Assembly: GCF_030818575.1 (NCBI RefSeq)
Contig: NZ_JAUTAL010000001.1
Location: 496,001-560,000, forward strand
DNA from: Chryseobacterium camelliae
GTDB taxonomy: Bacteria; Bacteroidota; Bacteroidia; Flavobacteriales; Weeksellaceae
Length of the DNA stretch: 64,000 nt
Direction: 5' to 3'
Shown here: piece by piece, positions 44,736-56,891 of the stretch
How the letters are laid out: each line of letters opens with the position of its first letter
How positions within the stretch are numbered: position 1 is the first letter of the stretch
Translations under genes and position numbers: made by a program
Notes under the pieces: model-generated
The model's input: the letters and a program-made list of their open reading frames with translations, nothing else
Database searches by the model: none
Told to the model about the DNA's origin: nothing

Positions 44736-47696
44736 ATGAAAAAAGTTAACGTTCTTCATCTGAAAGAGAAAGTCTTTCAAACGGCTCTGAGTTTGCTCAT
44801 ATTATTAGCATTCTTATCCGCAAATCCCGTATTTTCCCAAAATACAGTTCCCCTGCGCAGGACGGTGTCCCCGCAGCAGCCCATGTACATGATCCACATT
44901 GACACGTGGAATTATGCCAACCCGCAAAAGATCATCGATCTGATTCCTGCTGATATAAGACCGTATGTGGTTATGAACATCTCCCTTTCCATAAGTCATG
45001 ATGTACCGACATCAAGATTCAAGGTCGCAGAGTATGGGTATGAAGTGGCCAAATCATGGCTGCGGGTCTGTGCCGAAAACAGGATGTGGACCATGATTCA
45101 ATGTTCCAGCGGTGGCTTCAGCCAGTTTTCAGATACCGATTTGTCGGTATACGAGGAATTTTACAAAAATTACCCTAATTTTCTTGGATTCAATTATGCG
45201 GAACAGTTCTGGGGATTTGATGATGCCACGGATCCGCTTTCTCCAAGCTGGAGCACAAGAATAGCGCATTTTACCAATCTCCTGCAACTGTCTAACAAAT
45301 ATGGAGGATATCTTGTGGTAAGCTGGTGCGGAAACCAATGGTCACAGAGTATCAATCCGATCGCCATGCTGAAAAGAAATCCACAGTTTGCCGCAGCATG
45401 CGCCCAGTACAAGCAAAATTATATTTTGTGCGAGAAATACACCACACGAAGCTATAAATTTGATATGGAAAGCCTGGCACTGGGAACTTACCTGTCAGGA
45501 TACAGTGGTAACTACGGTATCCGGTATGATGATACAGGCTGGTACGATGATGATGGCAACCATGCCGGTTTTACAATGGCCACGGCAGGAGCTCCGGTCC
45601 TGGAGCACGCTATGCTTACCGGACAGACGGTAATTGACGGTCCTGAACTGATATGGACCCAGTGCTTCAGAGAACTTTCGTCAGCGGCCACCTCAGACGG
45701 TTATAGAGAAAGGAAGTGGGGTACCTATGATCAGTTCAGTAACGTGAGCATTGACCTGTTCAGAAAGATCATCGACGGGCATGTGAGAATACCTACACGC
45801 CAGGAAGTCATCAACCGTACGAAGGTAGCGATTATCAACAATGTAAGTTCGGGCAACGGAGATGCAATCTATAGCTCACCGCAAACACTTTTTGATGGGC
45901 TGTACAGAATGGATAACGACGGGACTTATCAGAATAACCTTAACTTTTTCAAGAAATCCGGAAGGTATCCTACCATTCCTACGGTTTTTCAGCTGAATGA
46001 TTATGTTGCCAACTCATTCCAGGTAAAGGTCAACAAATCGGATTACAGTTCCAGATGGCCGACAACAGACAGTAAAATTGCGGAGCTTAATAATCTTTTT
46101 CCGCAGGAATATACAGGGAATATCTATGCAGGGCGGCATGAAAACGGATGGGTGGTTTACAATCCGTTCAGAAACGGGCAGCAGGCAACGGGAAACATTC
46201 CCTTTAAATACAATACCAGTGAATCTATGGACCTGACTCTGTCCCAGTATACCTCGGGAGTGATCAAGGAGACAGCCAGCCAGCTCAAAATATACCTGAA
46301 TAATTTCGACAATGTTCTGAATACAGGATTGAAAACAGATGTTATCAGGATACATGGCAGCAGCGCAAAACCGACATGGTCATTCACAGATCGTGCTGCG
46401 CATCAGCCGAGCAATATAACAGAAAGCTGGTCCGGAGGAATTCTTACTTTAACAATTGCCCACAACGGTCCGCTGGATATTACGGTAAACTGTTCCGGAA
46501 ATTTCACAGGAAGGCTGACACAATATACACCTTCAAACGTTATTGCTCCTGCATTGCCACCGGTGTATCTGGGGACAAGGCAGTATGAAATGGAGTGCTT
46601 GGAATATAAAAATATCGGGCCGATCACTACGAGTGGTTATAATGCCGATATCAGAAACTATCATGGCCAGGGATACATACAGTTTGGGACGAATGCGGCC
46701 GCCGGTGTCCGAAAAAATGTGACCAACATGAATGGCGGAAACTATACTGTACAGATAAGGTATTCACTGGAAAGCGGGAGAGTGGATAATGTGGGATTAT
46801 TCGTCAATAACTCTCAGGTGGCAACAATGAGTTTCTCATCTACAGGGTCATTAAGTACCTGGAATACTCTGGCACAAAACATTACATTGAACTCCGGGAC
46901 CAATTCCATCGAACTTAGGGCGCTGTCTTCCAATACGAATCTTCTGTATCTGGATGAAATGACCCTGACACCAGCCAATGCCGGGCAGGAGATCTGGCTG
47001 GAGGCAGAGTGCGGCAATACCGGATCATTATGGCAGGTGCTTCAAAGCAGTACAGCTTCCGGGGGAAGATATATCACGATTACACCCGGTAATAACAGCC
47101 TAAACAATCCACCGTCCGATTCGGAAGGTGTCGCAACTTATAATTTCAATGTGGGTATATCCGGGAATTACAGTATTTGGGGAAGGTTGCGCGCACCAAG
47201 TGCCGATGATGATTCTTTCTGGGTAAAAATCGATAACGGAAGCTGGCAAAATATCAATGGTCTGAAGTCTTCAAACGTATGGACCTGGGATGTGCTGGCC
47301 ACAGCAGATCTTAGCGCAGGAAACCATACCCTGCAGATCGGGTACCGTGAAGATGGAACAAATCTGGATAAACTGTATATAGGAACAAATTATCCAACGG
47401 AATACGGCGGAAATTCAACAATGTGTCAGTCGTCTCTGGATGCGAAAACTACGCTGTCAACTGGTTCTGAGACCGTCATATACCCGAATCCGGCAAAAAG
47501 TGAGCTGAACATCAGATTTGGAGATGGCGTTGTACATGGCGATGAGATTTCTATTTATAATGTTGGAGGACAACTGGTGCTGAAGTCAAGGGTAAATTCT
47601 AAGAATGAAAAGCTGGAAATCGGGCAGTTACCGGCTGGGGTCTACCTTATTAAAGTTGGCCAGGGCGGTAAAACTTTGAAATTTATCAAAGAATAA
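44736..47696 (+). CDS. Secreted glycoside hydrolase family 98 protein with two CBM-like domains and a T9SS sorting tail
   Basis: A 986-residue secreted endo-glycosidase. It has a signal peptide ending near VFSQ. The GH98 catalytic domain (about 45-350) has candidate acid Glu156 in YAEQFWG and base residues near Asp265-266 (RYDDTGW) and Glu304 (DGPELIW). The GH98 C-terminal domain spans about 355-600. Two CBM6/35-like beta-sandwich domains start at about 612 (YEMECLEY) and 752 (IWLEAECG). The type A T9SS tail at about 914-986 has IYPNPAKSELNI and ends KTLKFIKE. GH98 enzymes cut blood-group-type glycans or xylan/galactan backbones; which is not clear here. Confidence 0.9.
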   Translation: MKKVNVLHLKEKVFQTALSLLILLAFLSANPVFSQNTVPLRRTVSPQQPMYMIHIDTWNYANPQKIIDLIPADIRPYVVMNISLSISHDVPTSRFKVAEYGYEVAKSWLRVCAENRMWTMIQCSSGGFSQFSDTDLSVYEEFYKNYPNFLGFNYAEQFWGFDDATDPLSPSWSTRIAHFTNLLQLSNKYGGYLVVSWCGNQWSQSINPIAMLKRNPQFAAACAQYKQNYILCEKYTTRSYKFDMESLALGTYLSGYSGNYGIRYDDTGWYDDDGNHAGFTMATAGAPVLEHAMLTGQTVIDGPELIWTQCFRELSSAATSDGYRERKWGTYDQFSNVSIDLFRKIIDGHVRIPTRQEVINRTKVAIINNVSSGNGDAIYSSPQTLFDGLYRMDNDGTYQNNLNFFKKSGRYPTIPTVFQLNDYVANSFQVKVNKSDYSSRWPTTDSKIAELNNLFPQEYTGNIYAGRHENGWVVYNPFRNGQQATGNIPFKYNTSESMDLTLSQYTSGVIKETASQLKIYLNNFDNVLNTGLKTDVIRIHGSSAKPTWSFTDRAAHQPSNITESWSGGILTLTIAHNGPLDITVNCSGNFTGRLTQYTPSNVIAPALPPVYLGTRQYEMECLEYKNIGPITTSGYNADIRNYHGQGYIQFGTNAAAGVRKNVTNMNGGNYTVQIRYSLESGRVDNVGLFVNNSQVATMSFSSTGSLSTWNTLAQNITLNSGTNSIELRALSSNTNLLYLDEMTLTPANAGQEIWLEAECGNTGSLWQVLQSSTASGGRYITITPGNNSLNNPPSDSEGVATYNFNVGISGNYSIWGRLRAPSADDDSFWVKIDNGSWQNINGLKSSNVWTWDVLATADLSAGNHTLQIGYREDGTNLDKLYIGTNYPTEYGGNSTMCQSSLDAKTTLSTGSETVIYPNPAKSELNIRFGDGVVHGDEISIYNVGGQLVLKSRVNSKNEKLEIGQLPAGVYLIKVGQGGKTLKFIKE

Positions 47697-50442: not shown

Positions 50443-50810
50443 ATCAGATGTGTATTGATTGTTTTGACATTATAGTATGGGTATTTGCCAGCCAGGAGTA
50501 GTTTGCCCTTGCCTGCAATGATCTTATACAAATTTAGTGGATGTTTTAATTCAAATATACAATGGTTGGATAAATTCCATTTTTAGTAGTTGATTGAAAA
50601 TAGTATTCCTGAAGTGGTGAATCCAAATTTTTGTTTAAAAAACATATAAATGTGATAAGTTTTCAAATTCAGGCTTGAAAAACAGAGTCCTTAATGTGAG
50701 TAGAAATAATCAGCTTTTAAAATGATTTTAGTTTGATAAAAAATATAAATTTCGTCAGACAGCGTCTCATCTGTTACCTGTAGGTATTTTTCTTTTCTTA
50801 ACAGTCTTTG

Positions 50811-50911
50811 AGACAAAAAGAACCCACGCCGTTGTATATACCCTTGAGTATTCAGTGAGTGTTTCAAGACCTCACCCTGCGGGTGTACAAGCACCCTCGT
50901 TATTTTTGCAG
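50811..50911 (-). ncRNA. Predicted guide RNA: hairpin scaffold plus about 20-nt guide, downstream of the dCas12f-like gene
   Basis: Directly after the stop codon the minus strand turns from coding into a structured stretch. GGGTG-CTTGTA-CACCC is a hairpin (50896-50881). GTGAG (50875-50871) pairs with CTCAC (50859-50855), and CTTGA with TCAAG as an alternative. The stretch then ends ATATACAAC, resembling the -AAC end of Cas12f repeats. The next 20 bases (50830 to 50811, beginning GGCGTGGG) would be the guide. Position downstream of the effector mirrors TnpB omegaRNAs. Boundaries are inferred. The rest of the gap, 50443-50810, is AT-rich with no gene seen. Confidence 0.6.
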
Positions 50912-52006
50912 CTAGCCGATGATCAGTTCGATACCGGCCTTCTCTGCTTTGTATTTTATTTTCGCCTGCAGTTCATAATAACTCCAGTTGCGGAGCACAA
51001 ATTCCTGCTCTTTTGCAATCCCTATTTTATCTTCCTGATTTTTTAGAATGAGCGTGCCAGCCTTTTGCTGTATGCAGAAATCAATAAGTTGCCGACTATA
51101 CAGATGAAGCCGATGGCTTACATACCGGCGCTCTAAATGTTCTGTTTTATAAAGGGCTTTTTGTTTCCGTTTGGCACCTTTTCCTGACCGGGCATAAGCA
51201 ATGCCGGTTTGAACCCTTTTCTGACTTGCCTGGATGGCCAGCCTGCGGTATAGAAACTCTTCTTTTGAGCCAATATGGATGCGCGCATGGTTGGCTTTTG
51301 CTACGATGGGATGTTCTAATGACAGGGAAGCTTCTGCAACGATTTCGGGTTTTAAATTATGCTCTTCTTTTTCAGTTTCAAATACGGCGAGCCAGAAGAT
51401 TTTCCCGGCTTTTAGCTGGATCTGGGAGGTACAAAGTTTGATCTCTCCTTTTAAAAGACGTTCTAATATCAGGCGTTTATCCGTAAAGTCCTTTCCTAAA
51501 TACGTTTTAACCGGAATCGCAAACATATTAAAGCAAAACGCTTTCTTTCCAGGATCATACTTCAGTTTGCTGATGCATTTCACCGGAAGCGGGATGGGGA
51601 TGTCTTTTTTAAAGTTTCTCAGTGATTTTGTGCCCTGCCAGTAGTCGGCTTTGTTTTTAGAAAAGGTGGATTGAATCGTATTGTTCAGGCTTCCCAGGAT
51701 ATCGGTGGGGATTTCTCCTTTGAAACGGTCGAAGACCATCCGTGCCGTGGTATTGGTTTTTGAGCGTGTGAACATGCCCATTTCATCTTTGTTTACATCA
51801 GCCAGCTTGTACCGGATGTCTTCTGTTAAATAAAAGAAATCTTTGATCATTTCCTGTACATACAGATGGGAAACGATGAAATTAGCCGCCCGGAAACAGC
51901 GGTTCTGATACCGGTAGAGTTTTTCCCATATCATATTTTTTTCATCGGATGGAACGTCGATCAGCAACTGGATTTTCCGGGTCAAGGTCATCGTAGGTTT
52001 TTCCAT
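50912..52006 (-). CDS. Nuclease-dead Cas12f/TnpB-like RNA-guided protein linked to an ECF sigma factor
   Basis: A 364-residue protein. The N-terminal 200 residues are a Cas12f/TnpB-like recognition part (KLYRYQNRCFRAANFI helix; beta-barrel-like segment near 135-215). The C-terminal part follows the RuvC plan. The RuvC-I strand at 222-235 (AEASLSLEHPIV) lacks the Asp. A basic bridge-like helix spans 252-300 (SGKGAKRKQKALYKTEHLERRY). In the RuvC-II strand TLILKNQED the catalytic Glu position is Asn/Lys. The WSYYELQAKIKYKAEKAGI helix ends just before RuvC-III. The zinc finger and last Asp are absent, so it should bind but not cut DNA. It starts one base after the sigma gene. Confidence 0.8.
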   Translation of the reverse strand: MEKPTMTLTRKIQLLIDVPSDEKNMIWEKLYRYQNRCFRAANFIVSHLYVQEMIKDFFYLTEDIRYKLADVNKDEMGMFTRSKTNTTARMVFDRFKGEIPTDILGSLNNTIQSTFSKNKADYWQGTKSLRNFKKDIPIPLPVKCISKLKYDPGKKAFCFNMFAIPVKTYLGKDFTDKRLILERLLKGEIKLCTSQIQLKAGKIFWLAVFETEKEEHNLKPEIVAEASLSLEHPIVAKANHARIHIGSKEEFLYRRLAIQASQKRVQTGIAYARSGKGAKRKQKALYKTEHLERRYVSHRLHLYSRQLIDFCIQQKAGTLILKNQEDKIGIAKEQEFVLRNWSYYELQAKIKYKAEKAGIELIIG

Positions 52007-52007
52007 G

Positions 52008-52823
52008 TCAAAAAGATTTTAAACATGTGTTTTCCTTCTGTAAACATTCGTAAGCATGGAGAAATTCCCGATGAACCTGCTTTTCGGACAGTTTGAGTTC
52101 CCGGGCAATAACAGTGAAAGATAATTTTTGTTCAATCCTTCTTTTCATGATCTCAAGCTGCTGATGGCTTGGTATATCTCGTTGCTCTTTATGATCGGAA
52201 GCTTTTTCCCTTGGCTTTTCAGAATAACTTCTGTTGAGAATTTTCCGAAGGTCATCGATGGCTCTGCTCACCTCATTGCTAATGCCTGTCACACTGCTTC
52301 CCATTGCCTCTGCAATTGGTTTGTACTGAAAACCATAGTCAAGGCAAAGCTCAATCAGATGTTTTCTTTTGGGATCCAGGACGCTTAATACCTTTTTGAC
52401 TTCATCAAAATCTTTTTGATCGGATTCCTGGCTAAGTAGATGCTCTTCATCAAGTAACGGATTGTAGCCGGCAAAATAATCCTGATCATTTCCAAACCGT
52501 TCAAATGAATCCATGAAGCGGGTGAATTGAGTTTTCGGAGCAGTGAAATACGTTATACAATCTCTTTTCAAAACCAACCGTAAAAAGCCAGGAATATGAT
52601 TCGGCGTTTCAATAGAATCACGGTGCAGCCAAAGTTTGAGGAAGGTGTCCTGCACCAGCGTTTCCACCACAAAATCATCGTCAAGCATTTGTTTCCCGAG
52701 CCAGAACAAAAGCCTTTTATACCGTAAATGGATATGTTCTAATGAGGAGGGATGGCCTTTTTTCAGCAGTACATAGAGCTGCTGATCGTTCAACATTCGG
52801 GGCAGGGAATCTTTTCTTTTCAT
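52008..52823 (-). CDS. ECF-type RNA polymerase sigma factor with C-terminal HTH extension
   Basis: A 271-residue sigma-70-family ECF factor. Region 2 is about 15-90 (LEHIHLRYKRLLFWLGKQM, TLVQDTFLKLWLHRD). Region 4 is about 140-200 (VLDPKRKHLIELCLDYGF, then HTH YKPIAEAMGSSVTGISNEVSRAI). Typical ECF factors end near residue 190-200. Here about 70 more residues follow, containing another HTH-like segment (LSFTVIARELKLSEKQVHREFL). TGA-C-ATG joins it to the dCas12f-like gene, so they are one operon. Sigma recruitment by the RNA-guided partner is the likely role. No anti-sigma gene is adjacent. Confidence 0.88.
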   Translation of the reverse strand: MKRKDSLPRMLNDQQLYVLLKKGHPSSLEHIHLRYKRLLFWLGKQMLDDDFVVETLVQDTFLKLWLHRDSIETPNHIPGFLRLVLKRDCITYFTAPKTQFTRFMDSFERFGNDQDYFAGYNPLLDEEHLLSQESDQKDFDEVKKVLSVLDPKRKHLIELCLDYGFQYKPIAEAMGSSVTGISNEVSRAIDDLRKILNRSYSEKPREKASDHKEQRDIPSHQQLEIMKRRIEQKLSFTVIARELKLSEKQVHREFLHAYECLQKENTCLKSF

Positions 52824-52921
52824 AAGCAGTGTTTTTAGCTGAATTATTGCTTGAAGAAACTGCTTCGATCAATAAGATGAATTCTCTGCATCAAAACGCT
52901 AACTCACTACTACATCTGCCC

Positions 52922-52996
52922 AAAAGAAAAGGCGTGGAACTCAACTTATTGACTAGAGGTACTGGTATACCCGTGCACGATAAGAGAGCCCACGCC
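52922..52996 (-). terminator. Attenuator-like terminator hairpin in the sigma-dCas12f leader
   Basis: On the minus strand GGCGTGG (52996-52990) pairs with CCACGCC (52937-52931). The stem is extended by GCTC/GAGT and CTTAT/ATAAG and is followed by TTTTCTTTT (52930-52922). Its 5' arm overlaps the competing long hairpin, so the two folds exclude each other. Confidence 0.5.
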
Positions 52997-53095
52997 GCGG
53001 TCGTGAGCAAATTTACTTATCTTCTCGTACACTTTAAAAATTACCAGTTTTCTAGTCGAGAATCTAAGCAATAGCTTCGATTATTATTTTTGAAG
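52951..53095 (-). ncRNA. Structured leader RNA upstream of the sigma-dCas12f operon
   Basis: Minus-strand transcription would give a long hairpin. GACTAGA and ACTGGTA (53057-53042) pair with TACCAGT and TCTAGTC (52967-52951). Inside, GTGTAC/GTGCAC, GATAAG/CTTATC and GCTCACG/CGTGGGC stack to a loop carrying CCGCGG. Two positions are G-U on this strand but C-A on the other, which fixes the orientation. The region is far more GC-rich than its flanks and has no ORF. It may be an attenuating leader, part of the guide RNA machinery, or a 6S-like RNA. Confidence 0.5.
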
Positions 53096-53100
53096 TATTG

Positions 53101-53108
53101 CAAAGTTA
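53101..53108 (-). promoter_or_regulatory. -7 promoter box for the leader RNA and sigma-dCas12f operon
   Basis: Minus strand TAACTTTG fits TAnnTTTG, with a TTG 21 bases upstream. A start near 53096 would place the structured RNA at the 5' end of the transcript. The sigma ATG is about 270 bases further on. Confidence 0.55.
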
Positions 53109-53193
53109 CCTTTATTGTAACCTATTTGGCAAATATAAAACATTTTTCTGTATGTAGGTTAATTAGACTACAAAAAATTATTAGAATCTTATC

Positions 53194-53211
53194 ACTTTGT
53201 CTATTCAAAGT
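53194..53211 (+). promoter_or_regulatory. Inverted repeat upstream of the XRE regulator
   Basis: ACTTTG-TCTATT-CAAAGT, ending eight bases before the ATG of the XRE gene. It is a likely operator for that protein, as in C-protein circuits of restriction systems. Confidence 0.5.
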
Positions 53212-53219
53212 TAACCACA

Positions 53220-53444
53220 ATGGATAAAATAGAATTTAGAATAGCATTTGGTAAAAGAGTCGAACTGTTTAGAAAAAAGCTTGATTTGAGTTATAGAGGC
53301 TTGGCCCAAAAATGTGATGTAGACCATAGTAATATCAGCAAAATAGAAAAAGGGGAAGTAGATCTTAGAATCTCTACTATTCAAGAGTTAGCTAAGGGGC
53401 TAGATGTTCATCCACAGGAGCTATTTGATTTTAAATTAAAGTAA
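53220..53444 (+). CDS. XRE-family helix-turn-helix regulator (C-protein-like)
   Basis: A 74-residue protein consisting almost only of a lambda-repressor-type HTH: YRGLAQKCDVDHSNISKIEKG (about 25-45), then STIQELAKGLDVHPQELFDF. Size and fold match controller proteins of restriction-modification loci. It is convergent with the methyltransferase operon. An inverted repeat sits just before its start codon, suggesting autoregulation. Its AT-rich composition matches the following island and not the upstream core genes. Confidence 0.88.
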   Translation: MDKIEFRIAFGKRVELFRKKLDLSYRGLAQKCDVDHSNISKIEKGEVDLRISTIQELAKGLDVHPQELFDFKLK

Positions 53445-53508: not shown

Positions 53509-54414
53509 TTACCTGTAAATTATTCTCCTTTCTCCTTTCTTGTTTATTCTGATTTTAAATTTCAAAGGATTCCAATCATTAATTTCTGGTTGATTTATAT
53601 TTTGCGAAAAAAACAAAACCTCTTGGCCATCTCTTGAGTTATAAACAGTATGCTTAAAAGAGTATTCCTTTTTTGAAATCCCTAGATATAAATTATTTAT
53701 TTCGGGTACATTGTCGTATGAGACAACCCATTTTATATTTCTTATGGCTTTTATTTTATCACTAACTTCTTTATGATTATGTTCTTTGTAATGGTTCATA
53801 TATAAAGAGCTAGCTTTTAAAAAATATGGAGGGTCAAAGTAGAAAATGATATTTTCCTGATTGGCTTCTTCTTGAATTTTATCAATGAGTTTTATTGCAT
53901 CTTTTCTATAGAGTCGAATATGTTTTTTCTTTTTTGCAATAGTTCTTATTCTTTCCATTAGATCTTGCTTATTAAATCTACAGTCCATAAGGTAGTTGCC
54001 ATTTTGTTCAACTCCACCAATAATACCAGCATTAATAATACCTGATCTATTAGTTCTATTGAGAAAAAAAGTTGAAAAACCTAGCTCTAATAAGTCAGCT
54101 TTATCCTTTCTATTTTGGATAGCTTTCTGTTTTCTCCATTCCTCAATCGTAATTTCAGTTTTATCAATTAGTTCACATAATTGATTAGTCTTATTTAGTA
54201 CTGAGTACCAAAAGGCATAAATTGACCTATCTTTATCGTTAATAGTGATTTTTGATACATAACCCTCAAGTAATAGGAATAGAGCTACGGATGCTCCACC
54301 AGAATATGGCTCTACATAATGCCCGTTGACATTGTTGTCAATGCATATTTTGGCCAAGAATGCTGATAGTTTATTTTTGCCTCCTGGATATCTTAAAGGT
54401 GAATAGTGTTTCAT
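53509..54414 (-). CDS. D12-class (Dam-like) DNA N6-adenine methyltransferase
   Basis: A 301-residue adenine methyltransferase. The SAM-binding motifs are LRYPGGKNKL (7-16) and VEPYSGGASVAL (34-45). The catalytic motif DPPY is at 194-197, in the alpha (D12) order. The C-terminal part has VVSYDNVPEI, which normally follows DPPY in this class. Target sequence unknown. It is the last gene of the HNH-ParB-methyltransferase operon, six bases after the ParB gene. It is probably the protective or modifying arm of the island. Confidence 0.92.
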   Translation of the reverse strand: MKHYSPLRYPGGKNKLSAFLAKICIDNNVNGHYVEPYSGGASVALFLLLEGYVSKITINDKDRSIYAFWYSVLNKTNQLCELIDKTEITIEEWRKQKAIQNRKDKADLLELGFSTFFLNRTNRSGIINAGIIGGVEQNGNYLMDCRFNKQDLMERIRTIAKKKKHIRLYRKDAIKLIDKIQEEANQENIIFYFDPPYFLKASSLYMNHYKEHNHKEVSDKIKAIRNIKWVVSYDNVPEINNLYLGISKKEYSFKHTVYNSRDGQEVLFFSQNINQPEINDWNPLKFKIRINKKGERRIIYR

Positions 54415-54419
54415 TTATA

Positions 54420-55886
54420 TTAAATTTCTTCATTAATTTCTACTAATTTTTCTAATAATGGAAATAAAAAATCCCAAAAACCATTTAAAAATGCACGTCC
54501 TAGATAATGAGAATCTTGACCATGTATATATCCATTTAGAACGTCTAAGCTATACTGATTAGATGTTTGAAGTAATTTTTCTACAATTTTTTTTGGTTTA
54601 TCAGGTAAATTATTTGTTTTTAAATATTCTAATCTATTTTTTAAACTAACATCCTTTATTGATTTTCTATAATGAGTAGAAATTGCTGTTTCTAAATTTT
54701 CTGTTTGGATATACTTTAATACGCATAAATCTAAAAATACTCTAATTGATGATGCTATACAATTACTATATTTCAAAGGAATTTCTTTTAATTCATTAAA
54801 TAAACCAACTATTCTGTAACTATCAGTGTTAATTGTATAGATATTTAAAACAAGTCTACTTCTATTAGGATCATTTTTTACTACTAATGGTGCTGATGGT
54901 GTTGGAGCTGGAGCTGGCGTGTCCTCTGGCTGATCTTCTATATCAGGGTTTGTAATTCCTTCATTTGTCTCTTGAGCATCATCTATGTTTTCTAACTCTA
55001 CTTTAGGTAATTTATTTAAGATACCATCTAGATTTGTGGTAATAGTTCTTGTGTCAATAGCATTGTCAGGATTTTTAGTTACAATGTCTTTGATTAATTT
55101 TCCATAAGCGTTTAAAAAGCTTAATTTATTTACAAATTTAATGTTTATTCCGTCATAATCAATTCCCCACTTTTCTTTAACATCTTTATTTGAAAAAAAT
55201 CTTTCTAATATTGTAATTGGAAATCTATATGAAGTAGCATCATTATATTCGCTATCTGATAATTGATGTCTTACCTCTTCTAATTTTACTAAATCTTTTA
55301 TTTTCAAAATTCTAATAAAATTTTCAAGTTCGCCTTGAGTCATTTTAGTTATAGAAGAGATTTTTTCAATATTTCCGTCATATTTTTCATAAAGTTCTGA
55401 AATCCACCTTTGTTGTTGTACTCTTGACCAAGATTTTTGTAAAGATGAGTTACTATTTCTTTGGTTAATATACCACTCAGCATCTTCAAAAGAGGGAGCT
55501 ACATTTACTAATACTTTTTCAATTGATTCTTTATTAATTTTTGAAGATAAAACTCTTACCATTCCTCTAATACTCTTAGGAGCTTTATTGGGTTCCCTAA
55601 GTAATTTTAAGGCTAAAACTCTTCTATTACCCTCTGCAACATAAAATTTTTCATTTTCTTCGTTTTTCCATACTACTACTGGATCGGCAGGAATAAAACC
55701 GTCATCAACAATTGATTTTAACAGTTTAAAAAAGTCTTTTCTATCAGATTCTTCAAATGTCATATCTTCAGCAAAATCACTTAGTAGTATATGTTTCTCT
55801 TCTGGGTTAAGTCTTGGGTTTTCAGACCATAATCTTAATTGATCGACAGAGCGAGGAGTTTTTTTATTGAGCCATTCGTATTTCAT
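54420..55886 (-). CDS. ParB/sulfiredoxin-domain protein of the AT-rich island
   Basis: A 488-residue protein. The N-terminal ParB/Srx-type nuclease-like domain spans about 10-130. Its core reads FIPADPVVVW, FYVAEGNRRVLALKLL, with the G-N-R-R motif expected to bind nucleotide or phosphate. A helical ParB-like middle part follows (to about 290). A Pro/Glu/Asp-rich linker is at about 310-345. The C-terminal helical domain has the sequence ...ISTHYRKSIKDVSLKNRLEYL.... It lies between the HNH and methyltransferase genes. ParB-like NTPase plus HNH pairings occur in modification-dependent restriction (GmrSD-like), which suggests a defence role. Confidence 0.75.
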   Translation of the reverse strand: MKYEWLNKKTPRSVDQLRLWSENPRLNPEEKHILLSDFAEDMTFEESDRKDFFKLLKSIVDDGFIPADPVVVWKNEENEKFYVAEGNRRVLALKLLREPNKAPKSIRGMVRVLSSKINKESIEKVLVNVAPSFEDAEWYINQRNSNSSLQKSWSRVQQQRWISELYEKYDGNIEKISSITKMTQGELENFIRILKIKDLVKLEEVRHQLSDSEYNDATSYRFPITILERFFSNKDVKEKWGIDYDGINIKFVNKLSFLNAYGKLIKDIVTKNPDNAIDTRTITTNLDGILNKLPKVELENIDDAQETNEGITNPDIEDQPEDTPAPAPTPSAPLVVKNDPNRSRLVLNIYTINTDSYRIVGLFNELKEIPLKYSNCIASSIRVFLDLCVLKYIQTENLETAISTHYRKSIKDVSLKNRLEYLKTNNLPDKPKKIVEKLLQTSNQYSLDVLNGYIHGQDSHYLGRAFLNGFWDFLFPLLEKLVEINEEI

Positions 55887-55913
55887 AATATAAGAATATT
55901 TAAAAAGTTTTTA

Positions 55914-56891
55914 CTATTTGGATTTTGGATAATCTTTTGAAAAATAATAATTTACATTGGTTCTTTTTTCAACCCATTCAAAAAGTTTTTTGATATTGTC
56001 TAAATCATCTATATAATTATGGTCTTTAATCTCTAAAGAATATAATGTTAGGGTCATCTCTTCTTTAATGGCAGAGGTAAGCTTCTCGATGATATCTTCT
56101 ATCTTATTTATTGAACACGGTAAAACAACAAGAAAACTACTTTTTGTTTTTCCCGTATCTAAATTAAAAGTTACAAAGAGACATTCGTATCCTTTATCAG
56201 TTACAAAATATACACCTTGCTTAAGTCCATAAATATTTTCAAACCAAAAGTATTCTGGATAAACTCTTTTATCTGGATTCTTTAGTTGCTCTCTTACTGT
56301 ATTATAGCATTCATCCAAAATAAGACAGTATCCCGTTTTTTCAAATAAAATTAGAAAGGCCGTTTTTAAAAGCGAATATTCTAATTTTTCTGGAATGACA
56401 GTGCTTTTTCCAAAATTGAAATCTATTATTTTACCTGGCTCAACATTTTCCATTATTGGATTTAATGTTTTGGGGTTGTTGTTTTTGAGGGAATGAAACA
56501 TCGACATCTCTCCATTTTCATTTACGGATAATGTTCCATTTAAAACTTCATTATCAATTATGGTTTTAACTTTAACAGATGTATTAGATAGAAATTTTTT
56601 TTGATCAATTTCATTCATTCTCTTTGCTAAATGAGAGTCAATCAAATAACCGCATCTATTATTACAACTTTTACAAGTTAATGTATTTGGTTTTCCTCCC
56701 AAGGCTTTAGGCGGTGCGTCTTCCAAGGTTAATGGGTCATCTTCGTTTAAATGTTTGTGCTTTGTTAGACAGATTGGACATATATAAATGTTTGTTTCTT
56801 CAGAAATAAGATTATTACTAACCAAGAGATTTAAATTATCTCGATACTTTTTAAAGAGTCTTTCTCTCTTTTCATGTGATTTTTTTGCCAT
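55914..56891 (-). CDS. HNH-endonuclease-like protein with zinc-ribbon core
   Basis: A 325-residue protein. The N-terminal third holds an HNH_5-like core with two Cys pairs: CPIC (38-41), then LTLEDAPPKALGGK, then LTCKSCNNRCG and DSHLAKRMN. In most HNH_5 proteins the middle reads EHVPP. Here Asp (LEDAPP) replaces the His, so catalysis may be altered. The remaining 200 residues are unassigned and AT-rich. It is the first gene of the operon with the ParB-domain and Dam-like genes. Confidence 0.7.
   Translation of the reverse strand: MAKKSHEKRERLFKKYRDNLNLLVSNNLISEETNIYICPICLTKHKHLNEDDPLTLEDAPPKALGGKPNTLTCKSCNNRCGYLIDSHLAKRMNEIDQKKFLSNTSVKVKTIIDNEVLNGTLSVNENGEMSMFHSLKNNNPKTLNPIMENVEPGKIIDFNFGKSTVIPEKLEYSLLKTAFLILFEKTGYCLILDECYNTVREQLKNPDKRVYPEYFWFENIYGLKQGVYFVTDKGYECLFVTFNLDTGKTKSSFLVVLPCSINKIEDIIEKLTSAIKEEMTLTLYSLEIKDHNYIDDLDNIKKLFEWVEKRTNVNYYFSKDYPKSK

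Follow-up and report, generated by a model that had tools for sequence, protein, structure and literature searches.

The window analysed here, 64,000 nucleotides of the Chryseobacterium camelliae genome, carries an ECF-type sigma factor gene directly beside a gene for a nuclease-dead Cas12f (dCas12f), and this arrangement raises the question of which DNA such a pair would address in its own cell. We consider it probable, though by no means assured, that the two genes form an RNA-guided operon whose guide shares an 8-nt seed with a predicted structured leader, located both ahead of the operon itself and ahead of other genes, and that RNA polymerase is brought there. The gene pair is composed as follows.

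52008..52823, minus strand: ECF-type sigma factor, 271 aa (Pfam Sigma70_r2 and r4; relative of 9n9q chain C, 'RpoE')
50912..52006, minus strand: nuclease-dead, C-terminally short Cas12f, 364 aa (phmmer match to 9n9c; RuvC changes)

Only one base, 52007, separates the two open reading frames, as the first-pass annotation had described. The 271-aa protein contains sigma-70 regions 2 and 4 above the Pfam cut-offs, together with a C-terminal stretch that resembles HTH families below the cut-off, and it is a relative of the 'RpoE' chain 9n9q_C (phmmer, E 1.3e-72). The 364-aa protein matches the PDB 'Nuclease-deactivated Cas12f' 9n9c from end to end (phmmer, E 5.5e-162), with 240 identical letters over 363 aligned query residues (66%), and its residues 82-361 match the 'Cas12f Nuclease' chain 9nzr (E 7.1e-40). 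In the latter alignment, the Asp of GVDLG faces Ser227 of the window protein and the Glu of the next motif faces Lys322; the window protein ends at residue 364, before RuvC-III, whereas 9nzr runs to 508, and the PDB dead Cas12f ends at the same place (365 aa). The intact RuvC active site of a Type V-F nuclease, defined by the motif letters that we take to be catalytic, is thus absent, in line with the earlier claim that the RuvC-I Asp, the RuvC-II Glu and RuvC-III are missing.

A structure prediction of dCas12f from 17 close orthologues reached a mean pLDDT of 45, which is too poor for a fold search, so the family case rests on sequence homology to solved chains; at 66% identity to a solved dead Cas12f, that homology places the protein in the Cas12f family. 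Given the end-to-end PDB relatives, the sigma match and the lost RuvC residues, the pair is, by this homology, a member of a known, structurally solved class. PDB entry 9n9q holds both 'Nuclease-deactivated Cas12f' and 'RpoE', which agrees with the mention of dCas12f-sigma pairs in the first-pass annotation.

The pairing extends well beyond the window. dCas12f was detected in 75 of 320 genomes of the window's family (E up to 1e-20) and in 22 of 395 genomes of an order draw, five of these 22 belonging to another family (f3). We retained 88 distinct fetched loci, the window included, in which a near-full-length dCas12f was recovered in one tblastn piece, and dropped fragments. The sigma gene lies directly upstream of dCas12f in all 88, with a gap of 1 nt in 73 loci, 2 nt in 12 and another length in 3; the named relatives are Chryseobacterium, Kaistella, Epilithonimonas and Elizabethkingia. 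This conserved linkage and the PDB relatives support the view that the locus is a Weeksellaceae example of the dCas12f-sigma class. A mobile element was also considered, and no transposase was seen beside the operon within the window. Decaying copies were observed as well: the operon of locus L028 has a scaffold without a guide, and dCas12f carries stop codons in genomes G121, G122 and G162.

Beside the gene pair, a conserved stretch is present 3' of dCas12f.

50831..50898, minus strand: predicted guide-RNA scaffold (conserved 3' of dCas12f; consensus fold)
50815..50830, minus strand: predicted guide GGCGTGGGTTCTTTTT (first 8 nt conserved, then a T-rich tail)

Across the loci, this stretch ends in TATATACAAC, followed by GGCGTGGGYTC and a T-rich tail. 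A scaffold-plus-guide pattern recovered 97 units in 85 of the 88 loci; L037 and L098 were missed by the pattern and have GGCGTGGG guides by eye, so that an adjacent predicted guide RNA accompanies 85 loci by pattern and 2 by eye, and L028 has the scaffold only. The consensus fold of the scaffold, derived from 25 units, is plausible and thinly supported, since only 2 of its 16 pairs show a compensatory change. Some loci carry arrays of two to four guide units with different guides, and no ordinary spacer array was seen by eye downstream of the window dCas12f. In four Kaistella-like loci (L045, L057, L107, L110), arrays of three or four units were observed in which the last guide fits the leader described below; no target was found for the earlier guides of these arrays (TGAGCGGTTTTC, GGGGCGGTTTTC, AGAGCGCCTTTC and AGAGCTCCTCAC), and a degenerate 13-mer target search for the other array guides in four genomes returned about as many control hits as hits.

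A second occurrence of the guide seed GGCGTGGG lies about 165 nt ahead of the sigma start codon, and the stretch that holds this match is found in front of many dCas12f operons (about -990 relative to the dCas12f start). In the window, the match lies inside a predicted structured leader with its own promoter and a divergent regulator gene.

52931..53071, minus strand: predicted structured leader RNA element, a long hairpin and a competing long-range helix (covariance model, covariation)
52985..52996, minus strand: candidate guide target within the leader of the operon itself, GGCGTGGGCTCT (on the strand of the sigma gene)
52986..52996, minus strand: 5' strand of the competing helix, GGCGTGGGCTC (shares positions with the candidate target)
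52931..52942, minus strand: 3' strand of the competing helix, GAGTTCCACGCC, then TTTTCTTTT (covariation; T tract in other leaders)
53101..53133, minus strand: Bacteroidota housekeeping-type promoter, TTTG, 21 nt, TAACTTTG (motif counts)
53220..53444, plus strand: small HTH regulator of 74 aa, divergently oriented and belonging to the leader module (Pfam HTH_3 above cut-off)

The leader model was built from 17 sequences over 140 positions, and its hit in the window has an E-value of 2.1e-39, the window sequence being itself a member of the model. Covariation was assessed in 67 leaders, obtained from 73 by removing 3 near-duplicates and three weak hits (L198-L200). In the long hairpin, 93.6% of cells are paired and 19 of 32 pairs are changed on both sides, a result that none of 500 shuffles reached; in another measure, the number of further pair types, 40 of 500 shuffles did as well. 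For the competing helix GGCGTGGGCTC/GAGTTCCACGCC, which excludes the tip of the long hairpin, pairing amounts to 95%, and two-sided changes affect 6 of 11 pairs, a number that none of 500 shuffles attained. A run of four T stands at or just past the leader end in 71 of 72 other leaders. The loop of the competing helix, at about 45 nt, is unusual for a terminator, and a simple terminator scan did not call this helix. No leader match was obtained in the window with Rfam 15 at the gathering threshold, and relaxing the search to E up to 1 over 50700-53260 returned only RAGATH-25 (E 0.73), inside the sigma gene. In the regions upstream of L037 and L094, the leader flanks are kept and the long hairpin, including the target, is gone.

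TAnnTTTG was found upstream of all 59 sigma-linked leaders and of 70 of the 72 others, against a background of 86 in 1440, and a TTTG 18-22 nt above it in 55 of 59 and 38 of 72, respectively. These are the elements of the Bacteroidota housekeeping promoter consensus. A divergent small ORF accompanies 58 of the 59 sigma-linked leaders and 62 of the 72 others, as raw counts; five other divergent ORFs were scanned, with three HTH matches above the cut-off, one below and one with none. Close relatives of the window HTH protein adjoin L269, L274 and L287. Assigning this gene instead to the neighbouring methyltransferase/HNH locus was rejected, given that divergent small ORFs accompany leaders elsewhere.

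The leader is considerably more widespread than the operon. It was found in 225 of 316 genomes of the window's family, compared with 75 of 320 for dCas12f, which implies that it has a function without the dCas12f system; in the order draw it was found in 92 of 395 genomes. By regular expression, it lies at most 1.7 kb upstream of dCas12f in 59 of the 88 loci, and all five order-draw dCas12f genomes outside the window's family have it, four of them directly upstream of the operon. The window's own genome has 10 leader-model hits at E up to 0.001, which precede the window operon, a second sigma-dCas12f copy, five loci of a 195-aa protein family (one of which, L197, was recognised by tblastn only) and, with weaker scores, three other genes. 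The dCas12f of the second copy (L072, C1:2246271-2247362) is 86% identical to that of the window, its leader lies at C1:2245206-2245347 (GGCGTGAGCTCA), and the first 16 letters of its guide are the same as in the window guide.

A TonB/SusC-type receptor is the first gene recognised downstream of 37 of the 72 other fetched leaders; this place is taken by a member of the 195-aa family in 19 cases, a TlpA-like gene in 7, a 149-aa ORF in 4 and a sigma gene in 2, with none in 3; the Pfam check of these downstream genes covered one receptor and one TlpA-like protein. Four of the 37 receptor cases (L289, L290, L294, L296) come from a clade with dCas12f about 2.5-3.5 kb downstream, where the receptor match may be a remnant. 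In genus g10, the leader stands 2-2.8 kb upstream of sigma-dCas12f (L294, L296, L297, L300), with a SusC-like match in between in L294 and L296, and the operon may have taken over a receptor locus. The 195-aa family (L193-L197, L203, L206, L211 and others) has no Pfam match above the cut-off and 133 homologues, the named ones among the matches listed being Chryseobacterium. A leader variant was also observed before a response-regulator-like ORF of about 130-150 aa (L291, L299, L307, L308); two small DNA-binding-like ORFs upstream of it in L299, L307 and L308 give what looks like a mobile-element context.

How far does the guide address this leader? In the window, guide and leader agree in 13 of 16 letters, 8 of them contiguous, and two of the three mismatches are T for C; an 8-nt seed match of this kind was reached by 22 of 3000 shuffled guides. 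Both guide and leader hold GGCGTGGG in 37 of the 59 linked leaders, and eight or more contiguous guide letters are present in only 37 of them; 14 have GGCGTGAG, and 5 have neither GGCGTGGG nor GGCGTGAG though the guide keeps GGCGTGGG. When guide nucleotides 2-13 were compared with the operon's own upstream region, at least 10 of 12 letters agreed in 19 of 87 loci, and shuffles did equally well in 706 of 1740 cases, so that these 12-nt matches are not significant for the window's clade. The match is at the leader site in 17 of these 19 loci, and one (L119, entry -3624) is void, as is the 14/14 own-upstream row of L119, whose coding start lies 244 nt into the locus. Own-upstream matches of guides that do not fit the leader are mostly at shuffle level, and exact copies of GGCGTGGGYTCT stand at three further sites of the window's own genome that are not leaders.

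Pooling the leaders gives a broader view. When the guide units are grouped by prefix, the classes with a match to pooled leaders on this strand, beside a G and with 0-2 mismatches, contain 81 of the 97 units; 16, assigned in the same way, fit no leader, and one of the 16, L116, has a low-complexity match with one mismatch to a T tract. In the leader-matching classes, the G comes directly before the match if numbering of the guide begins at its second nucleotide, and the target base in front of nucleotide 1 varies. The guides do better against the fetched leaders of the same genome (10 genomes), where 12 of 26 guide units match the leader site at 11-12 of 13 letters, a level reached by no more than 5 of 300 shuffles, and 14 miss it. 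Both guides of the window's genome are among the 12 and score best on the leader of a 195-aa gene. The ungapped test against the own genome's leaders failed for both G571 guides, all four G608 guides, guide 1 of G629 and the G590 guides; one G608 guide shares GCGTGACAT with leader L338 by eye, and L338 departs from the consensus in those letters.

Loci outside the window's clade bear more directly on the question. In two loci of another family than the window's, L310 (dCas12f 66% identical) and L311, the guide and guide 2, respectively, match the leader upstream of their own operon at 13 of 14 letters (0 of 200 shuffles each), and L311 guide 2 shares the leader variant GCTTA. A second Weeksellaceae clade has the guides AGCTCACTTATCG and GCGTGGGTTCACTT. 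In L113 and L114, guides 1 and 2 fit a single leader on the same strand and in different registers, at positions 102 and 97 of the stretch that was scanned. Each match covers 11 of 13 letters and has a G on its 5' flank, and only 1 or 2 of 300 shuffles did as well; in L112, guide 2 matches the leader likewise and guide 1 scores best elsewhere. L312 (G590:C1:52500-58500) is an operon without the leader, and its three guides match its own upstream region at 12/14 (0/200 shuffles), 11/14 (10/200) and 11/14 (6/200). The match sites, at -978 and -976 from the dCas12f start, are at the usual leader distance, and by eye another inverted repeat, GCCTTCCC ... GGGAAGGC, carries the match in its 5' arm. 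Judged by these alignments, the diverged relatives are stronger evidence for a guide that addresses the leader than the window's clade. A further match was noted in L314 (G608:C11), whose third guide, GCGTGAGCTTGCTTATT, agrees at 13 of 14 letters on the opposite strand (0/200 shuffles); this match lies within a palindrome that immediately precedes the divergent HTH gene and looks like the operator of that gene.

These results suggest a mechanism. The downstream RNA would be bound by dCas12f, and the complex would open the leader DNA into an R-loop at a match flanked by a G on its 5' side. The switching strand, some 100 nt beyond the start of ordinary transcription, would be the seat of this R-loop. 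In dCas12f-sigma systems, transcription reportedly starts at a set distance from the R-loop; here the sigma factor would recruit RNA polymerase to a start inside the leader, past the switching strand. Since a transcript from this inner start would lack GGCGTGGGCTC, it could form no helix with GAGTTCCACGCC ahead of the T tract, and RNA-guided initiation would escape a putative attenuator to which transcripts of the ordinary promoter are subject. The sigma-dCas12f operon would also activate itself, because it carries the same leader, and, depending on the genome, TonB/SusC receptors, TlpA-like genes or 195-aa genes would be activated along with it.

A more extended proposal, which we put forward tentatively and hold to be somewhat doubtful, is that of an RNA-guided sigma family specialised on a single structured leader, new to Rfam, which Flavobacteriales share ahead of outer-membrane TonB/SusC receptors. 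Its guides would copy the switching strand and work from seeds of only about 8-12 nt, with a programmable attenuator bypass and positive feedback on the operon itself as the outcome.

The main rival is a roadblock or promoter switch. Transcripts of the housekeeping-type promoter would run through the target, and dCas12f bound about 100 nt downstream of TAnnTTTG could block leader transcription, with net repression or a replacement of the start as the result. Dead relatives of TnpB provide a precedent: the TnpB-like, nuclease-dead TldR proteins are described as RNA-guided repressors (PMC13418256), and they share with the window protein the regulatory use of a RuvC-dead, RNA-guided protein. The window protein is, however, nearer to Cas12f, and the sigma gene kept beside dCas12f in 88 of 88 loci would be unneeded for pure repression and argues against a repressor of the TldR kind; the solved relative likewise stands with RpoE in one PDB entry, 9n9q. 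To our knowledge, TldR proteins have no sigma partner. We therefore regard such a roadblock as unlikely to be the whole explanation, and it may be part of the same switch.

A second rival moves the action from DNA to RNA, in that the guide would pair with the 3' strand GAGTTCCACGCC of the leader and refold it in trans, DNA targeting being secondary. The guide does resemble the 5' strand of the competing helix and pairs by eye with the 3' strand with one bulge, and the L312 guide seed GCCTTCCC has a partner, GGGAAGGC, downstream in its own upstream region. The second-clade guide AGCTCACTTATCG, however, lies mostly outside the switching strand and fits the leader DNA, not the 3' strand, and the sigma factor would be left without a role, so this reading appears to us improbable. 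Shared ancestry without targeting, with the leader as a recombining promoter cassette, the likeness of the guide due to descent or chance and the real targets elsewhere, would suit a leader that is widespread without dCas12f and followed by diverse genes, as well as the short seed matches in the window's clade, but we give it an equally slight chance, given that different guide registers, and a different sequence in L312, fall at the same place on the same strand.

Returning to RNA-guided initiation at the leader, the closest known system is dCas12f-sigmaE (9n9c, 9n9m, 9n9o, 9n9q), whose RNA-guided transcription was reportedly studied by Hoffmann, Xiao, Sternberg, Chang and others. The window system shares with it a dead, C-terminally short Cas12f that is 66% identical over its whole length, a sigma relative and an adjacent predicted gRNA. 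dCas12f-sigma systems reportedly use a minimal 5'-G target-adjacent motif, which the G beside the matched stretch may fit, provided that the guide is read from nucleotide 2. The window system differs in coming from Weeksellaceae, in its short-seeded guide with a T-rich tail, and in its likely native target, a structured leader common to the operon's own promoter region. Type V-F Cas12f nucleases are homologous over residues 82-361 (9nzr), and the window protein is set apart from them by the replaced Asp and Glu and the missing RuvC-III end. The leader resembles attenuators and riboswitch-type 5' leaders in its length and in its two mutually exclusive helices, one of them followed by a T tract; as a putative attenuator, it differs from them in having no Rfam family and in its long-looped competing helix. 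Our literature word search, whose coverage of such papers is small, found no paper on a dCas12f-sigma system.

The existence of these proteins is not new, because the class has already been solved; the interest lies in a concrete native target. Should the guide act on the leader, these RNA-guided sigma factors would gain a biological role, the control of surface receptors and of themselves. A leader found across 225 of 316 family genomes and absent from Rfam is worth study whether or not the guide acts there.

The surroundings of the operon in the window provide two further observations. On the minus strand, 53509-56891 encodes a D12-type adenine methyltransferase, a 488-aa protein without a Pfam domain above the cut-off and a 325-aa protein whose HNH match falls short of it; this neighbour of the operon may serve restriction-modification or another form of defence. 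On the plus strand, 44736-47696 encodes a GH98 glycosidase with CBM35/CBM6-like modules and a Por secretion tail.
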